Below, piece by piece: positions 13,636-24,183 of a stretch of 64,000 bases of DNA. The DNA is from Actinomycetota bacterium (lineage in GTDB: Bacteria; Actinomycetota; Acidimicrobiia; Acidimicrobiales; RAAP-2). The DNA is taken from positions 1 through 64,000 of the forward strand of contig JAJPJD010000010.1 in assembly GCA_021324355.1 (NCBI GenBank), read 5' to 3'. Every line of letters starts with the position of its first letter. The first letter of the stretch is position 1. The notes beneath the pieces were generated by a model that saw nothing but the letters and a program-made list of their open reading frames with translations, was not told where the DNA came from and did no database searches. Position numbers and translations under genes: made by a program.

Positions 13636-14412
13636 TCAGAGCCCCAAGTGCTCGCCCTCCCAGAGGCGGATGCCGCCCAGGATCCCGGCGTTGTTGTCCA
13701 CGATGGTGGTCTTGGCGGCGACGTCGCCGAGCTCGTCCAGCTTGACTCGGCGGGCGTTGCCACCCCCGAGGTAGAGGTGGTCGAAGAACACCATCGCGTC
13801 CAGCTGCACCACGGCCTTGCGGAGCCGGGTGTTCCAGCGGTGGTCACCGATCGACTTGCGGGCCCGGTCACCCAGCTGCTCGTTGTAGGTCTCGCCCTTG
13901 CGGAATGGCTGGTGGGCGATCTCGAGGTGCGGGAGCAGGCGCCCGTCCAAGAACGCAGCGGTGCCGAACCCGGTGCCCAAGGTGATCACGAACTCGAGGC
14001 CCTTGCCGGCCACCACCGCGGCACCCTGGACGTCGGCGTCGTTCGCCACCTTGGTCGGCCGGCCCAGCGCCTCGGCCAGGGCCGCGGCGAGGTCGAAACG
14101 GTCCCACGCCGCCACCAGGTCCGGTTCGACGGCCGAGCCCGGGCCGGACTTGGTCACGAAGTGGGGCGCGCTCAGCACCAGGCCGCCCCGGACCATCCCG
14201 GGGAACCCGGCCGAGACCCGGTCGGCCGCCGGCAACGGCCGCACCAGCTCCACCAGCGCCCGCACCAGCACATCGGGAGGGAGCGGGTAGCGGGTGGCCT
14301 CACGCACCCGGTCGGCCACCATCGCCCCGGTCGCGTCCAGGACCGACGCCTTGAGCCCGGTCCCGCCGATATCGATGGCCAAGGTGAGCGGCCGTCTTGG
14401 TTCGCGCGGCAT
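13636..14412 (-). CDS. ppgK: ROK-family glucokinase, probably polyphosphate-type
   Basis: 258 residues from ATG 14412 with AGGAG 6 nt upstream. The N-terminal phosphate-binding motif LAIDIGGTGLKASVLD and the catalytic-loop Asp in NDADVQGAAV are those of ROK kinases. The GTGFGTAAFLDG block and short length match actinobacterial polyphosphate glucokinases, which phosphorylate glucose with polyphosphate or ATP. A longer N-terminus is open in frame but looks non-native. It stands alone between the transporter operon and the secretion-like cluster. Confidence 0.8.
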   Translation of the reverse strand: MPREPRRPLTLAIDIGGTGLKASVLDATGAMVADRVREATRYPLPPDVLVRALVELVRPLPAADRVSAGFPGMVRGGLVLSAPHFVTKSGPGSAVEPDLVAAWDRFDLAAALAEALGRPTKVANDADVQGAAVVAGKGLEFVITLGTGFGTAAFLDGRLLPHLEIAHQPFRKGETYNEQLGDRARKSIGDHRWNTRLRKAVVQLDAMVFFDHLYLGGGNARRVKLDELGDVAAKTTIVDNNAGILGGIRLWEGEHLGL

Positions 14413-14666
14413 CGATGGCTCCTGCTCGGAGCTCACCGACGCCTCGGCCGCTGCCACGACCGGCACACTACCGGGCCCCGGACGACGGACAGCGGTCGGC
14501 GATTCCTTCCCGTTGTCCCCTCCACCTGCGACCAGGCTGGCCCAGGGGTTCTCTATCCCACCCGAGCCCCGCGAGGCGGATCGTGCAAAGACGTGAGTGC
14601 CGGGTGACAAGTCCCGACCAGCGGGCTGATCCGTTCCTCCTGGGCTCGGTTCAGATCATCCGATCG

Positions 14667-16130
14667 TCACCCTCGACGAGCCGGTGGACCACTGCACCTC
14701 GGTTCCTCGCCGATCGGGCACCGCGCCTGCCTTCGGTCACGCGCTGTCCCACCAACTCGGTCGGCAAGCGTCCGGTCCGACCACCACGGGACCAGGCGCA
14801 GGCGAGCTGGCGGGAGCGCTCCGTAGAGGAGGACCGCCTCGCCCCCGGGCAGTTGGCGCAGCGCCTCGGGCGGGACCAGCGGCCTCGGCACCGGGGGACG
14901 CCGGCCGGCGCGCTCCCGGACCCCGGACCAGTCGCGGCCAGCGGGCTCGGACTCTCCGGCCAGCAAACGGACGTGCTCCAAGGTGGCCGGCTCCGCGATC
15001 CCCGACAAGAACAGCCGGGCCCGGTGGTTGTTCAGCACCGTCGGGGCCCGGGGCCCGTAACGGGCGTGGAGCTGGGCCAGGTCCTGCCAGATCGTCACCA
15101 GGGCGATGCCGTGGCCAGCGCAGGTGGCGGCCAGCCCGTCGAGCTCGGCCACCGGCGCGATGTTGGCCGCCTCGTCCAGCACCACGAGCAGCGCTGGGTC
15201 GAGCGGGCCGCGCCGGGCGGCGCGGGTGAACGCCGCATCCAGCACCGCTTTGACCACCGCGACGAACACCGGCCGCAGCCGGCGCTGGTCGTGGGCCGGA
15301 GCACACAGGTAGACGGTGTTGGTCCCCGACAACAGGGCGTCGGGGTCGATGGCCTCGCCCTGTCCGGCGGCCCCACCAGCCAGCGGTTCGAGCACGGCCT
15401 CGACCGTCGTGTACACCGACGAGCGCTGCCGCTCCTCCCGCTGCCAGCTGGCCTGGATGGCCCAGATCGCCTGGTCCACCCCGGCCCGCTCCAACAGCTC
15501 CAGCACCTCGGCCACCTCCTGGGTGTCCACCCAGCGCAGCACGTCGGCCAGCGGCCGATCGGCGCTGGCCGCCGCGAACAGCAGCGGGGCCAGCAGCTTG
15601 GCCGCCATCGCATACCAGAACTCCCCGTCGGCGGTGGTCCCCTCGGAGCGGGCCAGCTCGGTGAGGTCGGCCGCGACCCGGCGGGCGCCGGCCCACGACC
15701 GGGCCGCAGCCAGAGGGTCCCAGGCCGCCGGCCGCTCCCCGCTTGACCCGGTCGGATCGAACACCCACACCCGGCCACAGCGCCGGCGCCACCCCACGGT
15801 CGCCGCCAACAGGTCGCCCTTCACGCTGGCCGCCAGGACCGGTCCCTCCCAGCCCAAGATGGCCGGGATGGCCAGGGCGCTGGTCTTGCCGCTCTGGGTG
15901 GGACCGACCACCGCCACCGACTGGACCGGCTCGGCGAAGACCAGGCGACGGGGCCACCGACCGACTGCCCCGAGCCGGAGGCGGCCCGGTCCGCGACCAG
16001 CCAGCACGTTGAGCTCACCGCGGCGGGCCCAGCGGGCCCCGCTGCCGGAAGGACCAGCGGAGCGGACCCGCCCACCCAGTGCGACCGCCGCCAGGCCGAG
16101 CGCCGCACCGAGCAGTGCCGCGTCACTCAC
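14667..16130 (-). CDS. VirD4/TraG-like coupling ATPase
   Basis: 487 residues from GTG 16130, overlapping the upstream gene (GTGA). One membrane segment near the N-terminus (LLGAALGLAAVALGG) is followed by a hexameric-type ATPase domain: Walker A VVGPTQSGKTSAL at about residue 90 and Walker B ALLVVLDEAANIAP at about 295, then the TraG/VirD4 C-terminal block ALVTIWQDLAQLHARYG. Such proteins deliver substrates to type IV secretion channels. It is the last gene of the five-gene cluster. Confidence 0.85.
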   Translation of the reverse strand: MSDAALLGAALGLAAVALGGRVRSAGPSGSGARWARRGELNVLAGRGPGRLRLGAVGRWPRRLVFAEPVQSVAVVGPTQSGKTSALAIPAILGWEGPVLAASVKGDLLAATVGWRRRCGRVWVFDPTGSSGERPAAWDPLAAARSWAGARRVAADLTELARSEGTTADGEFWYAMAAKLLAPLLFAAASADRPLADVLRWVDTQEVAEVLELLERAGVDQAIWAIQASWQREERQRSSVYTTVEAVLEPLAGGAAGQGEAIDPDALLSGTNTVYLCAPAHDQRRLRPVFVAVVKAVLDAAFTRAARRGPLDPALLVVLDEAANIAPVAELDGLAATCAGHGIALVTIWQDLAQLHARYGPRAPTVLNNHRARLFLSGIAEPATLEHVRLLAGESEPAGRDWSGVRERAGRRPPVPRPLVPPEALRQLPGGEAVLLYGALPPARLRLVPWWSDRTLADRVGGTARDRRQARCPIGEEPRCSGPPARRG

Positions 16131-17392
16131 CTCGGCTCCACCATGGCCCGGTCGGTGTCGACCAGGGCCTGCTCGGCCGGGGAGACGACATGGCGGACCA
16201 GGAAGGACCGGGTCCCCACCTTCCACAGCGCCACGCCCCGGGTGAGCTGGGGCAGGAGGTCGACCTCGGTGCTCGACAACGAGAGCAGGTCGGCGGCGCG
16301 CCCCGCCTCGCCCGGCGGCTGGGCGTAGAGCACCAGGGTCTCAGAGTCGCTGAGCAGCCCCTCGGCCAAGCCCACCTGCTCGGAGCCCACCGGGCCGACC
16401 GCGCTGAGGTCGCTCAACCGGTGGAGCACTGCCACGTTGGCCACGCCGTGGGCCCGGGACAGCTTCCACGACGCCTGCAGCCACCGGGCCACTCCCAGGT
16501 TGGCCAGGATCGCCCACGCCTCGTCCACCACCAAGAAGGCGAACGCCCCCCGGCGCCGCTGCTGGGTGAGGGCCGCCTGCAACCAGGCGGTGGCGCAGGT
16601 CATGAGCACCCCGAGCGCGCTCGAGGCGTAGAGGGCCGACAGATCGAGGACCACCAGCGGCCCCGACAGGTCCAGGCCATGGGTGGTCGGGCCGTCGAAC
16701 ATCCCTCGCAGGTCGCCAGCCACCAGCCGGCGCAGCTCGAGCGCCACGTCCCGCCCGTCCTCGAGCAGCCGCTCCCGGTCGGTCGAGATCCCGGCCGCGG
16801 CCCCGGCGTCCGGGTCGAGCAGGGCTTCGACCACCTGGGGCAGGGTCGGCACCGCCCGGGCGGCCTTGGCCGAGGCCAGCGCCAGGTCGACCGCCGCCCG
16901 CTCCCGGGGCTGCAGCGGCCGGCCCAGGCAGGCGCTGGCCAGCGAGGCCAACAGCTCGCACTGGCGGCGGTCCGGATCGTCGAGGATCCCGTCGGCCCGC
17001 CGGGCGGCCACCGGGTCGAGCGGGTTGAGCCGGACCTCGCCCCCGGGCCGCAGGGCGACCGGCCGCACCCCCCACAGCCGGGCCAGCCCGGCGTACTCCC
17101 CCTTGGGGTCGACCACCCAGGCTCGCCGGCCGAAGACGGCCTGGCGCCACAGGAAGGTCTTGAGCAGCGAGCTCTTCCCCCGCCCGATCTGGCCGAAGAC
17201 GATCATGTTGGGGTTGGACAGGACCCCGGCGGCGTAGAGCTCGAACGGGTCGTAGACGAAGGACCCCCCGAGCAGATCGTGGCCGACCAGCACCCCCCGA
17301 TGCCCCAGGCCCGCCTCGGCCACCAGCGGGTAGGCGGCGCCGAGGTTCCGGGTGGTGACCGAGTGGGCCGGCACCTTGAAGCCCGCCCTCAC
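16127..17392 (-). CDS. VirB4-like ATPase of type IV secretion
   Basis: 421 residues from GTG 17392 (overlaps the upstream stop). Walker A is GQIGRGKSSLLKTF (about residue 60) and Walker B is FAFLVVDEAWAILANLG; the arrangement WVVDPKGEYAGLA matches VirB4/TraC ATPases. It lacks the long N-terminal half of classical VirB4. In actinobacterial systems that half appears to be carried by a separate SCO6880-like protein, which is exactly the upstream gene here. It likely energises channel assembly. Confidence 0.83.
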   Translation of the reverse strand: MRAGFKVPAHSVTTRNLGAAYPLVAEAGLGHRGVLVGHDLLGGSFVYDPFELYAAGVLSNPNMIVFGQIGRGKSSLLKTFLWRQAVFGRRAWVVDPKGEYAGLARLWGVRPVALRPGGEVRLNPLDPVAARRADGILDDPDRRQCELLASLASACLGRPLQPRERAAVDLALASAKAARAVPTLPQVVEALLDPDAGAAAGISTDRERLLEDGRDVALELRRLVAGDLRGMFDGPTTHGLDLSGPLVVLDLSALYASSALGVLMTCATAWLQAALTQQRRRGAFAFLVVDEAWAILANLGVARWLQASWKLSRAHGVANVAVLHRLSDLSAVGPVGSEQVGLAEGLLSDSETLVLYAQPPGEAGRAADLLSLSSTEVDLLPQLTRGVALWKVGTRSFLVRHVVSPAEQALVDTDRAMVEPR

Positions 17393-18888
17393 GACAGCCC
17401 CCGGCACAGCGGCAGGGTGCACAGCAGGGCCCGCTCCTGGTCGCCGTAGAGGCGGCGCAGCTCCAGGCGGGCCTGGCCGGCCGCCTGCTCGGTGGCCTGG
17501 CACCACTCCTCGAGCTGGGTCGGGTCGGACGAGGTCACCGTCACGTAGCCGCTGAAGCGGTAGGAACCGTGGCCGTCGGCCAGCTCGGCCTCCCGGCGCG
17601 CCACCAGCTCGGCCTCCCGGGCCCGCCGGGCAGTGGCGAGGAACCCTCCCCGTCGCCGCAGCTCCGAGTCGGCGATGTCGGCGGTCCGAGCAGCCTCGAC
17701 CGCCCGCACCGCCCGCGACGGGCTGACCGGCTCCATCACCACCGCCACGCTCCGGCGAAGCGGGCCGAGCAGGATCGGGGCCAAGAAGTCCGGCCCGACC
17801 TCGACCCGTGGCCACTCGGCGATCCAGTAGGTGACGTGCCAGTTGGCGTCGGTGCGGACCCGCCCCCACTCCGCCTGGGTGGCCATGGGCCACGGCCACC
17901 CGACCATGCACGGCGGGCACCGGCGCCCCTCGTCGCTCGCCGCCAGCTCGGCCGGGTCGGGCTGGCCGATGGCCAAGATCGCCGCCGCCAGCTCGGCCGG
18001 GCCGAGCGGGCCCCGGCAGGTGACGTCGGCCCCGCCGACCAGCCGGGACAGGTTGGCGAGCTCCCGCAGCACGCTGTCGACCGCCGCCCGCTCACGGTCG
18101 GTCCCCCGCCCCGGGCGCGACGTGCGGACCTGGACCGCCAAGAGGACCAGGTGCCGGGAGGTCCCGGTCCCGCACGCCTCCAGCAGCTGCTGGTAGGAGG
18201 CGTAGGCCTCGCGGTCGCGGCTGACCGCCCGCTCCTCCAGGTCGGCCCGGACCTTGCGGCCGTCGTCGGGGAGGGCCAGCGCCAGCCACTGGAGGCGGTG
18301 CACCGCCGAGCCCTCCCGAGCCAGGGCGGCCAGGACCGAGGCCCAGGCGCCGACCCGGCGCTCCTGCTCGTCGGTGCCGAGGAGGGCGAAGCTGTGGCCC
18401 TCGAGCGCCAGGGCCGCGGTCAGCGTCCCGGCCCGGCGGTCCTGCACCACGCCGACCTCCGCCGCCAGGTCGGTCGCGCGCGCCTCCAAGATGCCGAGGC
18501 CGGCGAACACCCCGGGCGGCGCCAGACGAGGCCCCCCGGGCCGAGCCAGGACGAACGGCACCGGGCCGCCGTGGGCCGGGCAGTGGCCGGCACCGGGCTG
18601 GCCCGAGCGACGCCGCCGACCCCCGGCCCCGTCGGCGCCCCACCGGATGAGGGTCGGCAGCCACTCCTCGGCCGTGCGCCCGCCCAGCGGCCAGCACGCC
18701 ACCGCGAGCGCTGACCCGAGGACCGCCACTGCCTCGGCCACGCCGAGCGGGTCCGGGTGGAGCCGCAGGGACCCGACGCCGAGCAGGAGGCCGGCCGCGA
18801 CCACCGCGACCTGCCCGCCCCGCCAACCGGCGATCAACCCCCGGCGCTCCAGCGGTCCGAACCGATAGCGCGGCCGCTCAGTGGCCAT
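17389..18888 (-). CDS. SCO6880-like membrane component of actinobacterial type IV secretion
   Basis: 499 residues from ATG 18888. The opening RYRFGPLERRGLIAGWRGGQ and two membrane segments at about residues 25-70 match the SCO6880/PrgI-like family found beside VirB4 ATPases in actinobacterial conjugation loci. The long soluble part contains RHLVLLAVQVRTSR, and ELRRRGGFLATARRAREAEL near its end. It overlaps the upstream gene by 11 bp and the downstream ATPase by 4 bp. Its biochemical role is unknown; an N-terminal VirB4-like partner is a reasonable inference. Confidence 0.75.
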   Translation of the reverse strand: MATERPRYRFGPLERRGLIAGWRGGQVAVVAAGLLLGVGSLRLHPDPLGVAEAVAVLGSALAVACWPLGGRTAEEWLPTLIRWGADGAGGRRRRSGQPGAGHCPAHGGPVPFVLARPGGPRLAPPGVFAGLGILEARATDLAAEVGVVQDRRAGTLTAALALEGHSFALLGTDEQERRVGAWASVLAALAREGSAVHRLQWLALALPDDGRKVRADLEERAVSRDREAYASYQQLLEACGTGTSRHLVLLAVQVRTSRPGRGTDRERAAVDSVLRELANLSRLVGGADVTCRGPLGPAELAAAILAIGQPDPAELAASDEGRRCPPCMVGWPWPMATQAEWGRVRTDANWHVTYWIAEWPRVEVGPDFLAPILLGPLRRSVAVVMEPVSPSRAVRAVEAARTADIADSELRRRGGFLATARRAREAELVARREAELADGHGSYRFSGYVTVTSSDPTQLEEWCQATEQAAGQARLELRRLYGDQERALLCTLPLCRGLS

Positions 18889-20209
18889 GGCGCCCCCCAC
18901 CGGGCTCGGGGTCCGGGCGCCACCGCAGCACCGGGCCCAGGTGGTCCGAGACCAGCTCGTGGTCGCCGATCCGAGCCGGAGGCGGCCCCAGCGCCGGGAG
19001 CGTCGCGCCCCACACCGGCGGAGGACCGCTCGGGCGCTCCCGCTCGACCACCGGGGCTGGAGCCGGGATGCCGGGCCAGGTGCCGACGGCGTCGCCGGGA
19101 GGCGTCGCCGGGGAGCTCCCGCCACCGCCCGGGGCGCCCCCACCCTCCGAGCTCGGCGGCTCGGGCCCCGGCAGCTCCAGGGGGGCCGCCGCGCCGGTGC
19201 CCACCGGCAGCTCGGGCAGCGGGGGCGGGCCCAGCTGTCCCACCACCAGGGCGACGCCGGTGCGGCCGCCCATGACCGCCGCCCGCTGGGCCCGGTGCCG
19301 TACTTCCTCCAGGTGGTGGGCGGCGCTCGCCTCCACCATCGGCACCAGCCGCAGCAGGGTGAAGGGGGCGAACGCGGCCAGGAGCAACAGGGCGCCCCCG
19401 GCCAGCTCGGTCGCGATCGAGCCCCCCGACCCCACCGCACCAGCGGCCAGGCTGAGGACCGCCACGATCACGAACTTGGACAACACCAGGGCGGCCACCG
19501 TCTCCACCAGCCGCCGGCACCAGTGCGACACCGCCGGCCAGACCAGGCTGGCCAGGGCGAGGGGGAAGAACAAGGTGGCGGCGTAGACCGCGGCCGACCG
19601 GACCAGCAGCTCGACCCACAGCACCAGCGCACCGAGGGCGACGAACAGCGCGCCGAGGAGCGCGACGAAGGTCGGGACCCCCGCCCCGGTGCCGGCCGCC
19701 TGGTCGGCGAGGGAGGAGGCGACCGCGGAGAGGGCCGAGCCGATGCTGCCCGAGGACCCCGACGACACCGCCGACGCGAGCGCGTCGCAGGCGGCGAGGG
19801 ACAGCTGCACCAGCTGCACCGCCACTGCGCCGACCAGGAGCGCGAGCGGCAGGTGGACCAGCGCGGCCCGCAGAAGAGCGCTCGGGCTCTGGCGGTAGAT
19901 GGACTGCACCACCGACGCGGCCAGCAGCGGCACCAGCACCACCGCGGCCAGCCCGACCATCACCTCGTAGTGGCTCTTGAACCACGACGCCCCCAGGTCC
20001 ACCGAGGTGGTCGAGCCGATGACGCTCCCCACCGCAGACAGCAGCCAGCTCGCCCCCTGGGCGACCCCGGACGCCAGCACGCCCAGCAGGTCGGAGGCTC
20101 CGGCTCCAAGGATCGACGCGGTGACCCCGGAGGCGGCGCCGCACGCGAGCGACAGGCCCGGGATCACCCCACAGCCCACGCCCGGGATGAACGGCAGGGC
20201 CGCAATCAC
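18878..20209 (-). CDS. VirB6/TrbL-like polytopic membrane protein
   Basis: 443 residues with about six hydrophobic segments between residues 20 and 310 (for example AAVVLVPLLAASVVQSIYR, LPLALLVGAVAVQLVQLSL, FVALLGALFVALGALVLWV). A cytoplasmic Pro/Gly-rich tail from about 330 to the end follows. This layout, and the position beside VirB4-like and VirD4-like genes, identify the VirB6/TrbL inner-membrane channel component. The tail is unusually long and low in complexity. The family was assigned by topology and context, not by a catalytic motif. Confidence 0.7.
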   Translation of the reverse strand: MIAALPFIPGVGCGVIPGLSLACGAASGVTASILGAGASDLLGVLASGVAQGASWLLSAVGSVIGSTTSVDLGASWFKSHYEVMVGLAAVVLVPLLAASVVQSIYRQSPSALLRAALVHLPLALLVGAVAVQLVQLSLAACDALASAVSSGSSGSIGSALSAVASSLADQAAGTGAGVPTFVALLGALFVALGALVLWVELLVRSAAVYAATLFFPLALASLVWPAVSHWCRRLVETVAALVLSKFVIVAVLSLAAGAVGSGGSIATELAGGALLLLAAFAPFTLLRLVPMVEASAAHHLEEVRHRAQRAAVMGGRTGVALVVGQLGPPPLPELPVGTGAAAPLELPGPEPPSSEGGGAPGGGGSSPATPPGDAVGTWPGIPAPAPVVERERPSGPPPVWGATLPALGPPPARIGDHELVSDHLGPVLRWRPDPEPGGGRHGH

Positions 20210-20246
20210 CGCGCCCGGCCCCCCGGGGCTCGCCCGCCGCCGTCCA

Positions 20247-20534
20247 TCAGTGCAGGCCCGACCCGGCGCCGAAGAAGAAGTTGATGAGGGTCGGGGCGGC
20301 CCCGATCAGCAAGGCGGCCAGCCCGGCCACCAGCACCGCTCGACGGCCGGCCAGCGCCTGGTGGTAGTTCTGCGAGTGGGCGCCGATGGCCCACGCGGCC
20401 GCCCCGACCACCAGGCCCACCAGCGCCAGGATGAGTGCCCACCCCCCGATCCCGTTGGCCAGCTGCTGCAAGGTGCCCCCGCCGGGCAGCTGGGCGGGAT
20501 CCGGGTTGAGCGTCACGCCTGCCAACAAGTGCAT
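20247..20534 (-). CDS. Small VirB2-like membrane protein
   Basis: 95 residues from ATG 20534 with GAGGGGG just upstream. A short N-terminal stretch (HLLAGVTLNPD) is followed by two hydrophobic helices (GGWALILALVGLVVGAAAW and AVLVAGLAALLIGAAPTLI) with a polar turn between them, the topology of VirB2/TrbC pilin-like subunits. It is the first gene of the five-gene cluster and lies head to head with the senX3-like gene. No cleavable signal is obvious. Confidence 0.6.
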   Translation of the reverse strand: MHLLAGVTLNPDPAQLPGGGTLQQLANGIGGWALILALVGLVVGAAAWAIGAHSQNYHQALAGRRAVLVAGLAALLIGAAPTLINFFFGAGSGLH

Positions 20535-20659
20535 CGCGCCCCCTCGCCGTGGTCTGTTCGCCGGGGCGCTCCGCTGCCCCGGCCGGTCGAGCCGAACGGT
20601 CGGAGCGCGCCACGGGCCGGGTCGTCCCGGTGGAGCTGTGCTCCTGCCATGCTGGAGAG

Positions 20660-22122
20660 GTGATCGCAGCGGCTCCGGCCCCTGGCCACATTGCCGGCCT
20701 GCCTCCACCGTTGGCCTACGGCCTGGCCGCGCTGATCCTGGTGGTCGCGATCGTGGTCTCGGTCGCGCTGGGCCGACGCTCGGGGCGTCAGGCCCTGACC
20801 CAGCGGCTCAGTGCGCTCGGCTCCCGCCTCGGCCTGCACCCGCCCAGCGAGGAGAGCGGGCTCGAGAACGCGCTGGCCTACCTCGAGCAGGTCACCGGGG
20901 CCGCCTCAGAGGCGGTGGCCGAGGCCAGCGCCGACGCCATCCGGCTCCGCCGGGCGATCGACGCGCTGCCCCAGGGGGTGGTGCTGTCGGACGAGAACGG
21001 CAAGGTCGTCTACCAGAACCCCCGGGCCAACGCGCTCATGACCAGCCGCCTGGGGGACGCCCTGGCCGCCCAGGCGGTGACCGAGCTGCTCGAGGAGGCC
21101 TGGCAGCAGGGCTCGGCCGAGCGCACCGTCGACCTCTACGGGCCGCCGCCCCGGACGCTGCACGTGCGGAGCCTGCTGATCGACGACGGTCGGCGCTCCC
21201 TCGGGGTGATCGCACTGATCGAGGACATCTCCGAGCGCCGGCGACTCGAGATGGTGCGCCGGGACTTCGTGGCAACGTCAGCCACGAGCTCAAGACGCCG
21301 ATGGGCGCGCTCGGGCTGCTGGCCGAGACGCTGGTGGCCGAGCCCGACAGCGAGGTCGCCCGCCGGCTGGCCAACCGGATCCACACCGAGGCCTTCCGGG
21401 TGAGCCGGATCATCGACGACCTGCTCGACCTGAGCCGCATCGAGGCCGAGTCCGACCCGCCGCGCGAGCCGGTCCTCGTGAACCTGATCATGGCCGAGGC
21501 GGTCGAGCGGGTCCGGGCCACCGCCGACCAGCGGGGCATCGCCATCGTGCTGTACGAACCCTCCCCGGCGGTGGCGGTCATGGGGGACCGCCGCCAGCTG
21601 GTCTCGGCCCTCCACGCCCTGCTCGAGAACGCGGTGACCTACTCCTACGACAACAGCACGGTCACCGTGACCGGCACCGTGGCCAAGGAGCCGGTCGACG
21701 ACGCGGCGGGCGCCGAGCCGGGACTGGCGCTGGCCGCCGGGCCCCCGCCGCCCCGCTCCCACCACCCGGCGGCGGCCGCCCCGGTGGCCCGGACGGCCAC
21801 CGATCCCCAGACCGCCCAGCCGGCCGAGCCGGACAGCGACGCCGGTCCCCTCCCGGCGGTCCACGGCGAGCGGGAGGTGGTGAGGATCTCGGTCGCCGAC
21901 CACGGGATCGGCATCCCGGGGCGGGACCTCGAGCGGATCTTCGAGCGCTTCTACCGGGTCGACCACGCCCGCAGCCGCAACACCGGCGGCACCGGGCTCG
22001 GGCTGTCCATCGTCCGCCACGTGGCCACCAACCACCGGGGCCGGGTGGACGTGGAGTCCCGTGAGGGTGAGGGGTCGACGTTCACCCTGGTGCTGCCGCT
22101 CCAGGGTGACCGGGGGAGCTGA
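20660..22122 (+). pseudogene. senX3: SenX3-like sensor histidine kinase, broken by a one-base frameshift
   Basis: From GTG 20660 the frame encodes one membrane segment (LAYGLAALILVVAIVVSVAL), a PAS-like domain (IDALPQGVVLSDENGKVVYQNP) and the helix leading to the phospho-acceptor (MVRRDFVA). At 21272-21275 one base is missing: GTGGCAACGTC where GTGGCCAACGTC is expected. The continuation NVSHELKTPMGALG, with all later boxes (LLENAV, DHGIGIP, GGTGLGLSIV), lies in the +1-shifted frame through 22122. Restoring one base gives 487 residues. A Pro/Ala-rich insertion of about 65 residues splits the ATPase domain. It may be a real loss or a sequence error. Confidence 0.82.
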
Positions 22123-22124
22123 CC

Positions 22125-22874
22125 GTGCCCTCGCCAGCGACCCGGGGCGGCGAGGACCGGCCGACCTGCGTGCTCATCGCCGAGGACGAGGAGTCCTTCG
22201 CCGACGCCCTCACCGTCGGGCTCAGCCGGGAAGGCTTCGTGGTGCACGTGGCCGGGGACGGCACCACTGCCCTCAACCTGTTCGGCTCGATCGACCCCGA
22301 CGTGGTGCTGCTCGACCAGATGCTCCCGGGGGGCCTCTCCGGCCTCGACGTGTGCCGCTCGATCCGGGCCACCTCGTCGGTGCCCATCATCATGGTGACC
22401 GCCAAGGGCGAGGAGATCGACACCGTGGTCGCGCTGGAGGTCGGCGCCGACGACTACGTCACCAAGCCGTTCCGCATGCGCGAGCTGATCGCCCGCATCC
22501 GGGCCGTCTCCCGCCGCTCCCCGAGGGGCGGGCCCGAGGTCGAGGGGGCCCAGCGGACCGAGGAGGGTCAGATCGTGGTGGGCGAGGTGGCGGTCGATCC
22601 CGACCAGCGGCGGGTGCACGTCCGGGGGTCCGAGATCCGGCTCCGGCGCAAGGAGTTCGACCTCCTCCTGCTGCTGGTGGAGAACGCCGGCCGGGTGCTC
22701 ACCCGGGACGTGCTGATCGACCGGGTCTTGGGTAGCGACTACATCGGCGACACCAAGACCTTGGACGTGCACATCAAGCGGCTGCGGTCCCAGATCGAGC
22801 GCAACCCGGCCGAGCCCGAGCTGATCACGACCGTGCGCGGCGTCGGCTATCGGTTCGCGGCTCCCGGCCGCTGA
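22125..22874 (+). CDS. regX3: RegX3-like response regulator
   Basis: OmpR/PhoB-family regulator of 249 residues from GTG 22125, 2 bases after the kinase. The receiver domain has acidic residues in AEDEES, phospho-acceptor Asp 64 (VLLDQMLPG), and the conserved Thr/Lys (MVTAKGE; YVTKPF). The C-terminal winged helix includes RLRRKEFDLLLLLVENAG and TVRGVGYRF. In mycobacteria RegX3 with SenX3 controls the phosphate-starvation response; the same role here is inferred. It stays intact although its kinase frame is broken. Confidence 0.88.
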   Translation: MPSPATRGGEDRPTCVLIAEDEESFADALTVGLSREGFVVHVAGDGTTALNLFGSIDPDVVLLDQMLPGGLSGLDVCRSIRATSSVPIIMVTAKGEEIDTVVALEVGADDYVTKPFRMRELIARIRAVSRRSPRGGPEVEGAQRTEEGQIVVGEVAVDPDQRRVHVRGSEIRLRRKEFDLLLLLVENAGRVLTRDVLIDRVLGSDYIGDTKTLDVHIKRLRSQIERNPAEPELITTVRGVGYRFAAPGR

Positions 22875-22878
22875 GCGC

Positions 22879-24183
22879 TCAGGGCCGGCGGATCACCGTC
22901 TCGCCCCCCAGGTACGGGGCGAGACAGTCGGGCAGCCGGACCGAGCCGTCGGGCTGCCGACCGGTCTCCACCAGGGCCGGCCAGATCCGCGACCAGGCCA
23001 GGGCCGAGCCGTTCAGGGTGTGCACCAGGACCGGCGGTCCGCCGGCGGCCGGGCGGTAGCGGATGTTGGCCCGGCGGGCCTGGTAGTCGCGGTACCAGCT
23101 GACCGAGGACACCTCCCAGAAGCGGTCGACCCCGGGCAGGTAGACCTCGAGGTCCACCGTCCGGGCAGCGGCGCCCGAGAGGTCGCCGGCACACAGCTCG
23201 ACCACCCGGTAGTGCAGGCCCAGGTCCTGCAGCAGGGCCTCGGCCCGGCTGGTGATGTCGGCGTGGACCGCCGGGGCCTGCTCGGCGGTCGCGTACGCCA
23301 TGAGCTCCACCTTGTCGAACTCATGGGTCCGCAGGAGCCCCCGGGTGTCCCGGCCGGCCGCCCCGGCCTCCCGGCGGAAGCACGCGGTGACCGCGCAGAA
23401 CCGCATCGGCAGATCGGCCTCGTCGAGGATCTCGCCCCGGTACAGCGAGGTGAGGGGCACCTCGGCGGTCGGGATGGCCCACAGGTCGTCTCGCTCGACG
23501 TGGTAGCCCTCGTCGGCGAACCGGGGCAGGTGCCCGGTCGCAGTCATGGTGTCGGTGAGCACCAGGGTGGGGGGCCGGATCTCCTCGTAGGCGTCGGCGT
23601 GGTGCTCGAGGGCGTACGCGCTCAGGGCCCGGATCAGGCGGGCGCCGGCCCGGCGGTAGAGGGGGAACATGGAGCCCGAGAGGCGAGCCCCCCGCTCCAG
23701 GTCCAAGATGCCCAGCTCCTGGCCGACCTCCCAGTGGGGCACCCGCTGGTGGGGCCCGTACTCGGGGGGCGGGGCACCGGCCTCCATGCCCGGCCACCAC
23801 CGCCGCACCACCACGTTGTCCTCGGGCCCGTCGCCGTCGGGGGTCTCCTCCGACGGCAGGTTGGGCAGGAGCAACAGCGCGTCGCGCAGCGCCCCCTGGG
23901 CGTCCTCGGCCTCGGCCGCAGCCGCCTTCTCCTGGTGCCCGAGCTCCCGGCTGCGGGCCACCAGCGCCTCCGCCGCGTCCGAGTCCCCGGCGCCCCGCGC
24001 CTCCCGGACCTGGCGGGAGAGCTCCTTCACCTGGGCTCGCAACGCCTCCTGGGCCCGCAGCCGCTGGCGGGCCAGCGCGTCGAGGGCCACCACCCGCTCG
24101 ACCTCGGCCCGGGCCACCCCCCGGCGGGCCAGGGCGGCGGCCACCGCCTCGGGGTCCTCGCGCAGCAGCCGGACGTCGATCAC
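22879..24183 (-). CDS. serS: Seryl-tRNA synthetase
   Basis: Class II synthetase of 434 residues from GTG 24183, with GGAGG 5 nt upstream. Residues about 25-110 form the antiparallel coiled-coil arm that holds tRNA-Ser. The catalytic core has motif 2 (FRREAGAAGRDTRGLLRTHEF region) and motif 3 (VHTLNGSALAWSRIW). The length is normal. It is divergently transcribed from the ABC-transporter pair. Confidence 0.95.
   Translation of the reverse strand: MIDVRLLREDPEAVAAALARRGVARAEVERVVALDALARQRLRAQEALRAQVKELSRQVREARGAGDSDAAEALVARSRELGHQEKAAAAEAEDAQGALRDALLLLPNLPSEETPDGDGPEDNVVVRRWWPGMEAGAPPPEYGPHQRVPHWEVGQELGILDLERGARLSGSMFPLYRRAGARLIRALSAYALEHHADAYEEIRPPTLVLTDTMTATGHLPRFADEGYHVERDDLWAIPTAEVPLTSLYRGEILDEADLPMRFCAVTACFRREAGAAGRDTRGLLRTHEFDKVELMAYATAEQAPAVHADITSRAEALLQDLGLHYRVVELCAGDLSGAAARTVDLEVYLPGVDRFWEVSSVSWYRDYQARRANIRYRPAAGGPPVLVHTLNGSALAWSRIWPALVETGRQPDGSVRLPDCLAPYLGGETVIRRP

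Follow-up and report, generated by a model that had tools for sequence, protein, structure and literature searches.

Within a 64,000-nucleotide stretch of an Acidimicrobiales genome (assembly GCA_021324355.1, contig JAJPJD010000010.1, positions 1 to 64,000; hereafter the window), five genes at positions 14667-20534 encode proteins resembling components of type IV secretion systems (T4SS). This five-gene locus is vertically inherited chromosomal machinery of the host Acidimicrobiales family. We think it probable that its products form the channel of a vertically inherited, conjugation-type DNA-transfer system, the second half of which is a relaxase/VirD4 locus lying behind pafBC. A bolder reading, which we offer tentatively and rate as slightly short of probable, is that the family owns a chromosomal conjugation apparatus (relaxase, two VirD4-like ATPases and channel) that passes the bacteria's own chromosomal DNA from cell to cell. 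It would then be the bacterial equivalent of archaeal Ced/Ted, and surveys that look for gene clusters would miss it, its parts lying at two separate loci.

The hosts are little-known soil and freshwater bacteria, which inherit a channel and a DNA-nicking enzyme at two fixed places. Bacterial conjugation machinery is regarded as nearly exclusively a property of plasmids and integrative conjugative elements (ICEs), and the mycobacterial exception in DNA transfer uses a type VII secretion system (T7SS). DNA transfer by domesticated T4SS relatives is known from archaea (PMC9905601). If relaxase and channel are core genes of a bacterial family, gene exchange can be a selected cell trait. In the literature searched, no paper combined Acidimicrobiales with a relaxase.

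The five-gene cluster and its divided VirB4

A check of the window's sequence revealed that the five genes, all on the minus strand, are real and correctly placed. Their order, 5' to 3', is pilin, VirB6-like protein, SCO6880, VirB4 C-terminal ATPase and VirD4; the overlaps read off the sequence are 11 bp for VirB6/SCO6880, 4 bp for SCO6880/VirB4 and 4 bp for VirB4/VirD4, and the pilin gene is set apart from the VirB6-like gene by 37 bp. Together with the profile matches below, this bears out the initial annotation, which had described five co-directional genes, the last four overlapping by 4-11 bp, between ordinary chromosomal flanks (ppgK, senX3/regX3); the flanking genes are indeed ordinary, and they are also conserved across the family.

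The first gene (20247..20534) encodes a VirB2/TrbC-like small pilin of 95 amino acids with two hydrophobic segments, which matches DUF6112 (3e-9) and, weakly, TrbC (0.003). It is 55-91% identical across the clade and has a ratio of nonsynonymous to synonymous substitution rates (dN/dS) of 0.02 in one pair of relatives, the lowest value there. The second (18878..20209, GTG start, 443 amino acids) encodes a VirB6/TrbL-like polytopic membrane protein of the SCO6881 family; its assignment to VirB6 is based on the SCO6881 profile (4e-17, under the strict cut-off of that model) and on a Foldseek search in which the protein's model best matched the R388 VirB6 protein TrwI, weakly (probability 0.94, E 0.05). 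The third (17389..18888) encodes a 499-residue SCO6880 family protein (4e-79, 267 bits against a cut-off of 60) with two N-terminal transmembrane (TM) helices and the fold of a VirB4 N-terminal domain. The fourth (16127..17392) encodes the C-terminal ATPase half of VirB4 (421 amino acids; VirB4 family profiles 2e-18; the VirB4-like PDB entry 4ag5, 9e-13), in which the Walker motifs are conserved (A, GQIGRGKS; B, VVDEAW), and the fifth (14667..16130, GTG start) a VirD4-type coupling ATPase (T4CP) with one N-terminal hydrophobic segment (PF02534, T4SS-DNA_transf, 1e-30; TraG-D_C, 1e-15). The parts of an SCO6880-type T4SS or mating-pair channel are present in this set: a VirB4 ATPase in two halves, a VirB2-like pilin, a VirB6-like pore and a VirD4 coupling protein. 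The CedB model gave only E 0.07, and the present system does not include a CedB member. A defence system was ruled out as well; PADLOC gave no specific match, just generic P-loop similarity to mad8.

The initial annotation had also noted that VirB4 function looks split between two proteins, and structure prediction bears this out. Modelled with AlphaFold2 (pLDDT 78, pTM 0.80), the SCO6880-like protein had R388 VirB4 (TrwK) as its sole significant Foldseek match (E 3e-10), with residues 124-499 superposing on TrwK/VirB4 15-382 (Z 23.9). Because SCO6880 is predicted to fold like the N-terminal half of VirB4 and the next gene encodes the ATPase half, VirB4 is, on this model, made of two chains: SCO6880, which supplies two membrane helices and the N-terminal half, and the ATPase half. 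Such a split is the usual state of SCO6880-type systems, plasmids included, and is not peculiar to this genome.

A further likeness emerged from the same model, which over its whole length, N-terminal TM hairpin included, superposes on a membrane subunit of the mycobacterial ESX-3/ESX-5 T7SS (6umm_A, Z 17.8 over 271 residues; 6sgz_D, 12.8; 7b9f_E, 12.2). This subunit is probably EccE. Since the SCO6880 sequence profile matched no PDB chain, the likeness is one of fold, and ESX systems differ in being devoted to protein secretion; the predicted structure nevertheless suggests that an actinobacterial T4SS subunit is kin to a T7SS core component.

An inherited chromosomal locus across the host family

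The channel was followed through 150 genomes of the host family from 21 genera, most of them metagenome-assembled genomes (MAGs) and 98 of high quality. A VirB4 profile built from the family matched 138 of the 150 genomes in 20 of the 21 genera; SCO6880 was matched in 40 of 61 genomes of the host and its relatives. The search of related genomes that the initial annotation had proposed thus recovered the same genes with the same neighbors: senX3/regX3, divergent and upstream, and serS accompany the channel in 30 of the 31 loci with enough flank, and ppgK lies downstream in 16 of 18 testable family loci. The block CtaA-UbiA-ABC2-serS-regX3-senX3-[channel]-ppgK is retained even in divergent, small-genome members of the family. 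Gene order within the channel is kept in all 28 family loci, and this, together with purifying selection (channel dN/dS 0.02-0.18), places the cluster beyond chance. The interval from VirD4 to ppgK holds no further T4SS genes in relatives; the genes found there encode a P450, an amidase and other metabolic functions.

The 12 genomes without a VirB4 match are heterogeneous. Six have a clear pilin match, which in five or more of them lies near a match to regX3 on one contig; in two, the contig breaks off at or close to the site; and another three show no match to the pilin and, at the threshold used, none to regX3. The remaining one, G031, which is assembled in four contigs, carries a genuine deletion (locus L260, G031:C1:814000-833999): senX3 and ppgK are kept, and between them only the first 38 codons of the pilin gene remain.

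Channel protein distances correlate with those of the flanking serS and of unlinked genes, as expected of vertical descent. In a quick VirB4 tree with several long branches, resident copies group with sister-lineage copies (SH-like approximate likelihood ratio test, SH-aLRT, 91), and copies from other settings, of which some belong to elements, mostly branch outside the resident group. Named records of the same kind come mostly from uncultivated Acidimicrobiaceae/Acidimicrobiales MAGs. The fixed family-wide synteny and the congruent gene distances support one of the two origins first envisaged for the cluster, a domesticated DNA-translocation machine.

A MOBF relaxase at a second conserved locus

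The initial annotation had described the cluster as lacking a relaxase. This holds for the window's contig, on which no TrwC relaxase was found in a genome-wide relaxase search that covered the TrwC type only, other families not being profile-searched; it does not hold for the genome, where the only TrwC match, an intact MOBF relaxase, occupies a second conserved locus on another contig (C21, L003:15636-17021; 461 amino acids; PF08751, 2e-64). The relaxase was found in 147 of the 150 family genomes, including all 98 of high quality. It has a TrwC domain with the catalytic tyrosine and HUH histidines of a MOBF relaxase, and Tyr14 and the HUH-region residues H151, H160, H162 and H164 are invariant in 19 relaxase sequences.

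The neighborhood of this gene is fixed as well. A fused PafBC-type regulator lies upstream on the same strand at 20 of 20 testable loci, and a second VirD4-like gene is convergent with the relaxase at 21 of 21. The second VirD4-like ATPase, also on C21, has the Walker A motif GPSRSGKTSS and no obvious N-terminal membrane segment, and is apparently soluble. Both genes are under purifying selection (dN/dS 0.25-0.36 for the relaxase, 0.10-0.20 for the second VirD4). On C21 itself (L003:13674-17021), the relaxase gene starts 34 bp behind the fused PafBC-type WYL regulator. PafBC is reported to be activated by single-stranded DNA in mycobacteria (PMC11804915), and the gene arrangement points to a standing link between an enzyme that would make single-stranded DNA and a regulator reported to respond to it; this setting would fit a use in recombination repair.

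In other lineages relaxase and channel lie together. A longer relaxase homologue is found 84-366 bp from the pilin gene in two sister lineages (L188, L189), and in two further ones (L194, L199) the relaxase is within a few kb of the channel genes. Outside the sampled family loci, channel genes related to this clade occur in 14 genomes, and every one of these has a MOBF relaxase as well; in several it again adjoins pafBC. In Salsipaludibacter albus, an isolate, about 12 kb of a single contig separate the relaxase from VirB4. A plasmid of Iamia sp. SCSIO 61187 (NZ_CP050949.1) carries related MobF, SCO6880, VirB4 and VirD4 as a set; therefore, this type of relaxase and this type of channel occur together as a mobile set. 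Across genomes, relaxase distances correlate with channel protein distances (r 0.73 for VirB4, 0.87 for SCO6880). The initial annotation had held that a relaxase, integrase and attachment sites just outside the cluster in close relatives would reveal an ordinary ICE; a relaxase adjoins the cluster only in these sister lineages.

Some family genomes (loci L208, L209 and L212) hold, in addition to the resident system, further copies with long relaxases (>1100 amino acids) near a divergent SCO6880-type channel. These are likely to be conjugative elements of the conventional kind.

Proposed DNA transfer, alternatives and flanking features

The two loci encode the parts that single-strand DNA export by conjugation would need: a relaxase for nicking, VirD4 for coupling and a minimal channel of pilin, VirB6 and two-chain VirB4. 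We propose that the relaxase nicks a strand of chromosomal or resident mobilizable DNA through its conserved tyrosine and stays bound, and that one or both VirD4-like ATPases would bring the relaxase-DNA complex to a channel made of the VirB2-like pilin, the VirB6-like pore and the two-chain VirB4 motor, with SCO6880 as anchor and N-terminal half and VirB4C as ATPase half. Single-stranded DNA may then pass to a neighboring cell of the same population. Because neither locus has an integrase (Phage_integrase) and both are vertically inherited, chromosomal or resident mobilizable DNA would be the most likely substrate. We infer that DNA is moved at all, as well as its direction, substrate or cargo, oriT and regulation.

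The nearest functional analogue is the archaeal Ced/Ted system, likewise chromosomal, domesticated and minimal, with a VirB2-like pilin, a VirB6-like pore and a VirB4-like motor; it transfers cellular DNA with no apparent relaxase (PMC9905601), whereas the present system is bacterial, has VirB4 in two chains and adds VirD4-like ATPases and a MOBF relaxase. Among actinobacteria, Streptomyces also has chromosomal clusters of the VirB4C/SCO6880/SCO6881 type, cmdABCDEF (SCO4126-4131) and SCO6878-6881 (PMC2782261), from which the senX3/regX3-serS setting and the family-wide relaxase partner set the present system apart. The Iamia plasmid and related SCO6880-type plasmids of Streptomyces and Arthrobacter share the MobF relaxase, SCO6880, VirB4C and VirD4 (VirB4 41% identical) but differ in carrying insertion sequence (IS) elements and cargo, in their long relaxase (>1000 amino acids) and in having no fixed chromosomal locus. 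With the MOBF, VirB-type Trw system of R388, the present one shares the TrwK/VirB4 N-terminal fold, a weak VirB6 fold likeness and TrwC-type relaxase motifs. R388 Trw is plasmid-borne, comes from a diderm host, and has a fuller VirB set and a relaxase with a helicase domain.

Cluster-based searches would tend to miss such an arrangement. One survey asked for VirB4, T4CP and relaxase within 60 genes and reported many relaxases yet unexpectedly few T4SS in Actinobacteria (PMC3158045); by such a rule the channel would be classed as a protein exporter and the relaxase assigned to a mobilizable element. The mismatch may be explained in part by loci that are dispersed and by a VirB4 of two chains, both of which can escape cluster-based searches.

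Several observations weigh against a conjugation-type function. The 461-residue protein is, judged from its sequence, a relaxase-domain-only variant and not a TrwC/TraI-like bifunctional enzyme: it has no further Pfam match that would indicate a C-terminal helicase domain, and the family's short relaxases (about 380-490 amino acids) are unlike model MOBF members, which have one. No oriT was found, the relaxase gene of close relatives has little non-coding DNA at either end, and neither a VirB8-like nor a peptidoglycan-hydrolase gene is present in the cluster. The distance correlations between relaxase and channel speak for common vertical descent no less than for a functional connection. Moreover, G031 still has an apparently intact relaxase elsewhere after losing the channel, so the relaxase may have another role.

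That last point also favors a reading we judge unlikely, in which the channel was domesticated for another cellular job, moving or segregating the cell's own chromosome or aiding envelope development, with the relaxase acting separately as a chromosomal DNA-processing enzyme. The relaxase gene's place immediately behind the DNA-damage regulator pafBC is consistent with this, as is the precedent of cmd, whose chromosomal VirB4-, SCO6880- and SCO6881-like genes, when lost, disturb sporulation and chromosome segregation and not SLP2 plasmid transfer (PMC2782261), a further point against DNA transfer. However, cmd encodes a single ATPase, and a sporulation phenotype but neither a VirD4 nor a relaxase has been reported for it (PMC2782261); the present system conserves a relaxase together with two VirD4-like ATPases. 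Less likely still is a resident helper channel that exports mobilizable plasmids or integrative mobilizable elements (IMEs) in trans, or secretes proteins, and is selected through cargo elements or effectors. VirB4 and T4CP without a nearby relaxase are what the survey took to mark a protein-exporting T4SS (PMC3158045), and some family genomes hold additional long-relaxase elements; yet the presence of a relaxase, at a fixed locus of its own, in almost all genomes speaks for a permanent partner and against cargo that changes, and none of the genes seen in linkage with the channel was effector-like.

A DNA-import system working in the direction described for Ced (PMC9905601), for recombination repair or nutrient DNA, would likewise use a minimal pilin/VirB6/VirB4 set, as the archaeal movers of cellular DNA do, and could account for a relaxase behind the reportedly single-strand-activated pafBC (PMC11804915). 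We consider it very improbable: no relaxase is apparent in the archaeal systems (PMC9905601), the conservation of one here implies that a processed strand is exported, and no RecA-NDp/PafBC-type promoter motif was found upstream of the channel, pafBC or the second VirD4. Finally, the initial annotation had offered the remainder of an integrated element as its other possibility. The channel genes are homologous to plasmid and element genes, and integrase and relaxase are absent locally: in a genome-wide search for tyrosine integrases, which left serine recombinases out, Phage_integrase matched neither the 92-kb channel contig (C57) nor the relaxase contig (C21), the genome's four matches lying on C58, C15, C22 and C61. 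It is nonetheless extremely improbable that an ICE once integrated near senX3/regX3 and degenerated to this remnant, and for the family as a whole this reading is already refuted. Neither an integrase with the element, a relaxase in the cluster, nor the patchy distribution and variable sites of an ICE were seen; instead, complete genes with invariant motifs stand under purifying selection at the same site in 30 of 31 loci, which span about 20 genera, and their distances follow those of flanking serS. Fixed synteny and purifying selection thus speak for vertically inherited chromosomal machinery rather than for a mobile element or what is left of one.

Around the channel, the conserved neighbors in the window are ppgK (polyphosphate glucokinase, ROK; 13636..14466, minus strand) on one side and, on the other, a divergent senX3-like histidine kinase gene (20549..22122, plus strand), a regX3-like response regulator gene (22125..22874, plus strand) and serS (seryl-tRNA synthetase; 22879..24183, minus strand). 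No RegX3/PHO-box motif was enriched in the shared senX3-pilin intergenic region. DNA-damage control through a RecA-NDp/PafBC-type motif was rejected, as the sequences ahead of the pilin, pafBC and second VirD4 genes were not convincingly enriched in it; a slight excess at the second VirD4 falls within the coding region of Walker A. In this assembly senX3 is split over two frames near 21300, by an assembly error or a real frameshift, and in close relatives it is a single intact frame of about 490-500 amino acids. Two conserved blocks lie upstream of the pilin gene in the senX3-pilin intergenic region (window 20535-20700 and homologous regions): CCAGCATG, found in 18 of 58 loci, and CGACCGTT, found in 12 of 58, where shuffles reach at most 9.

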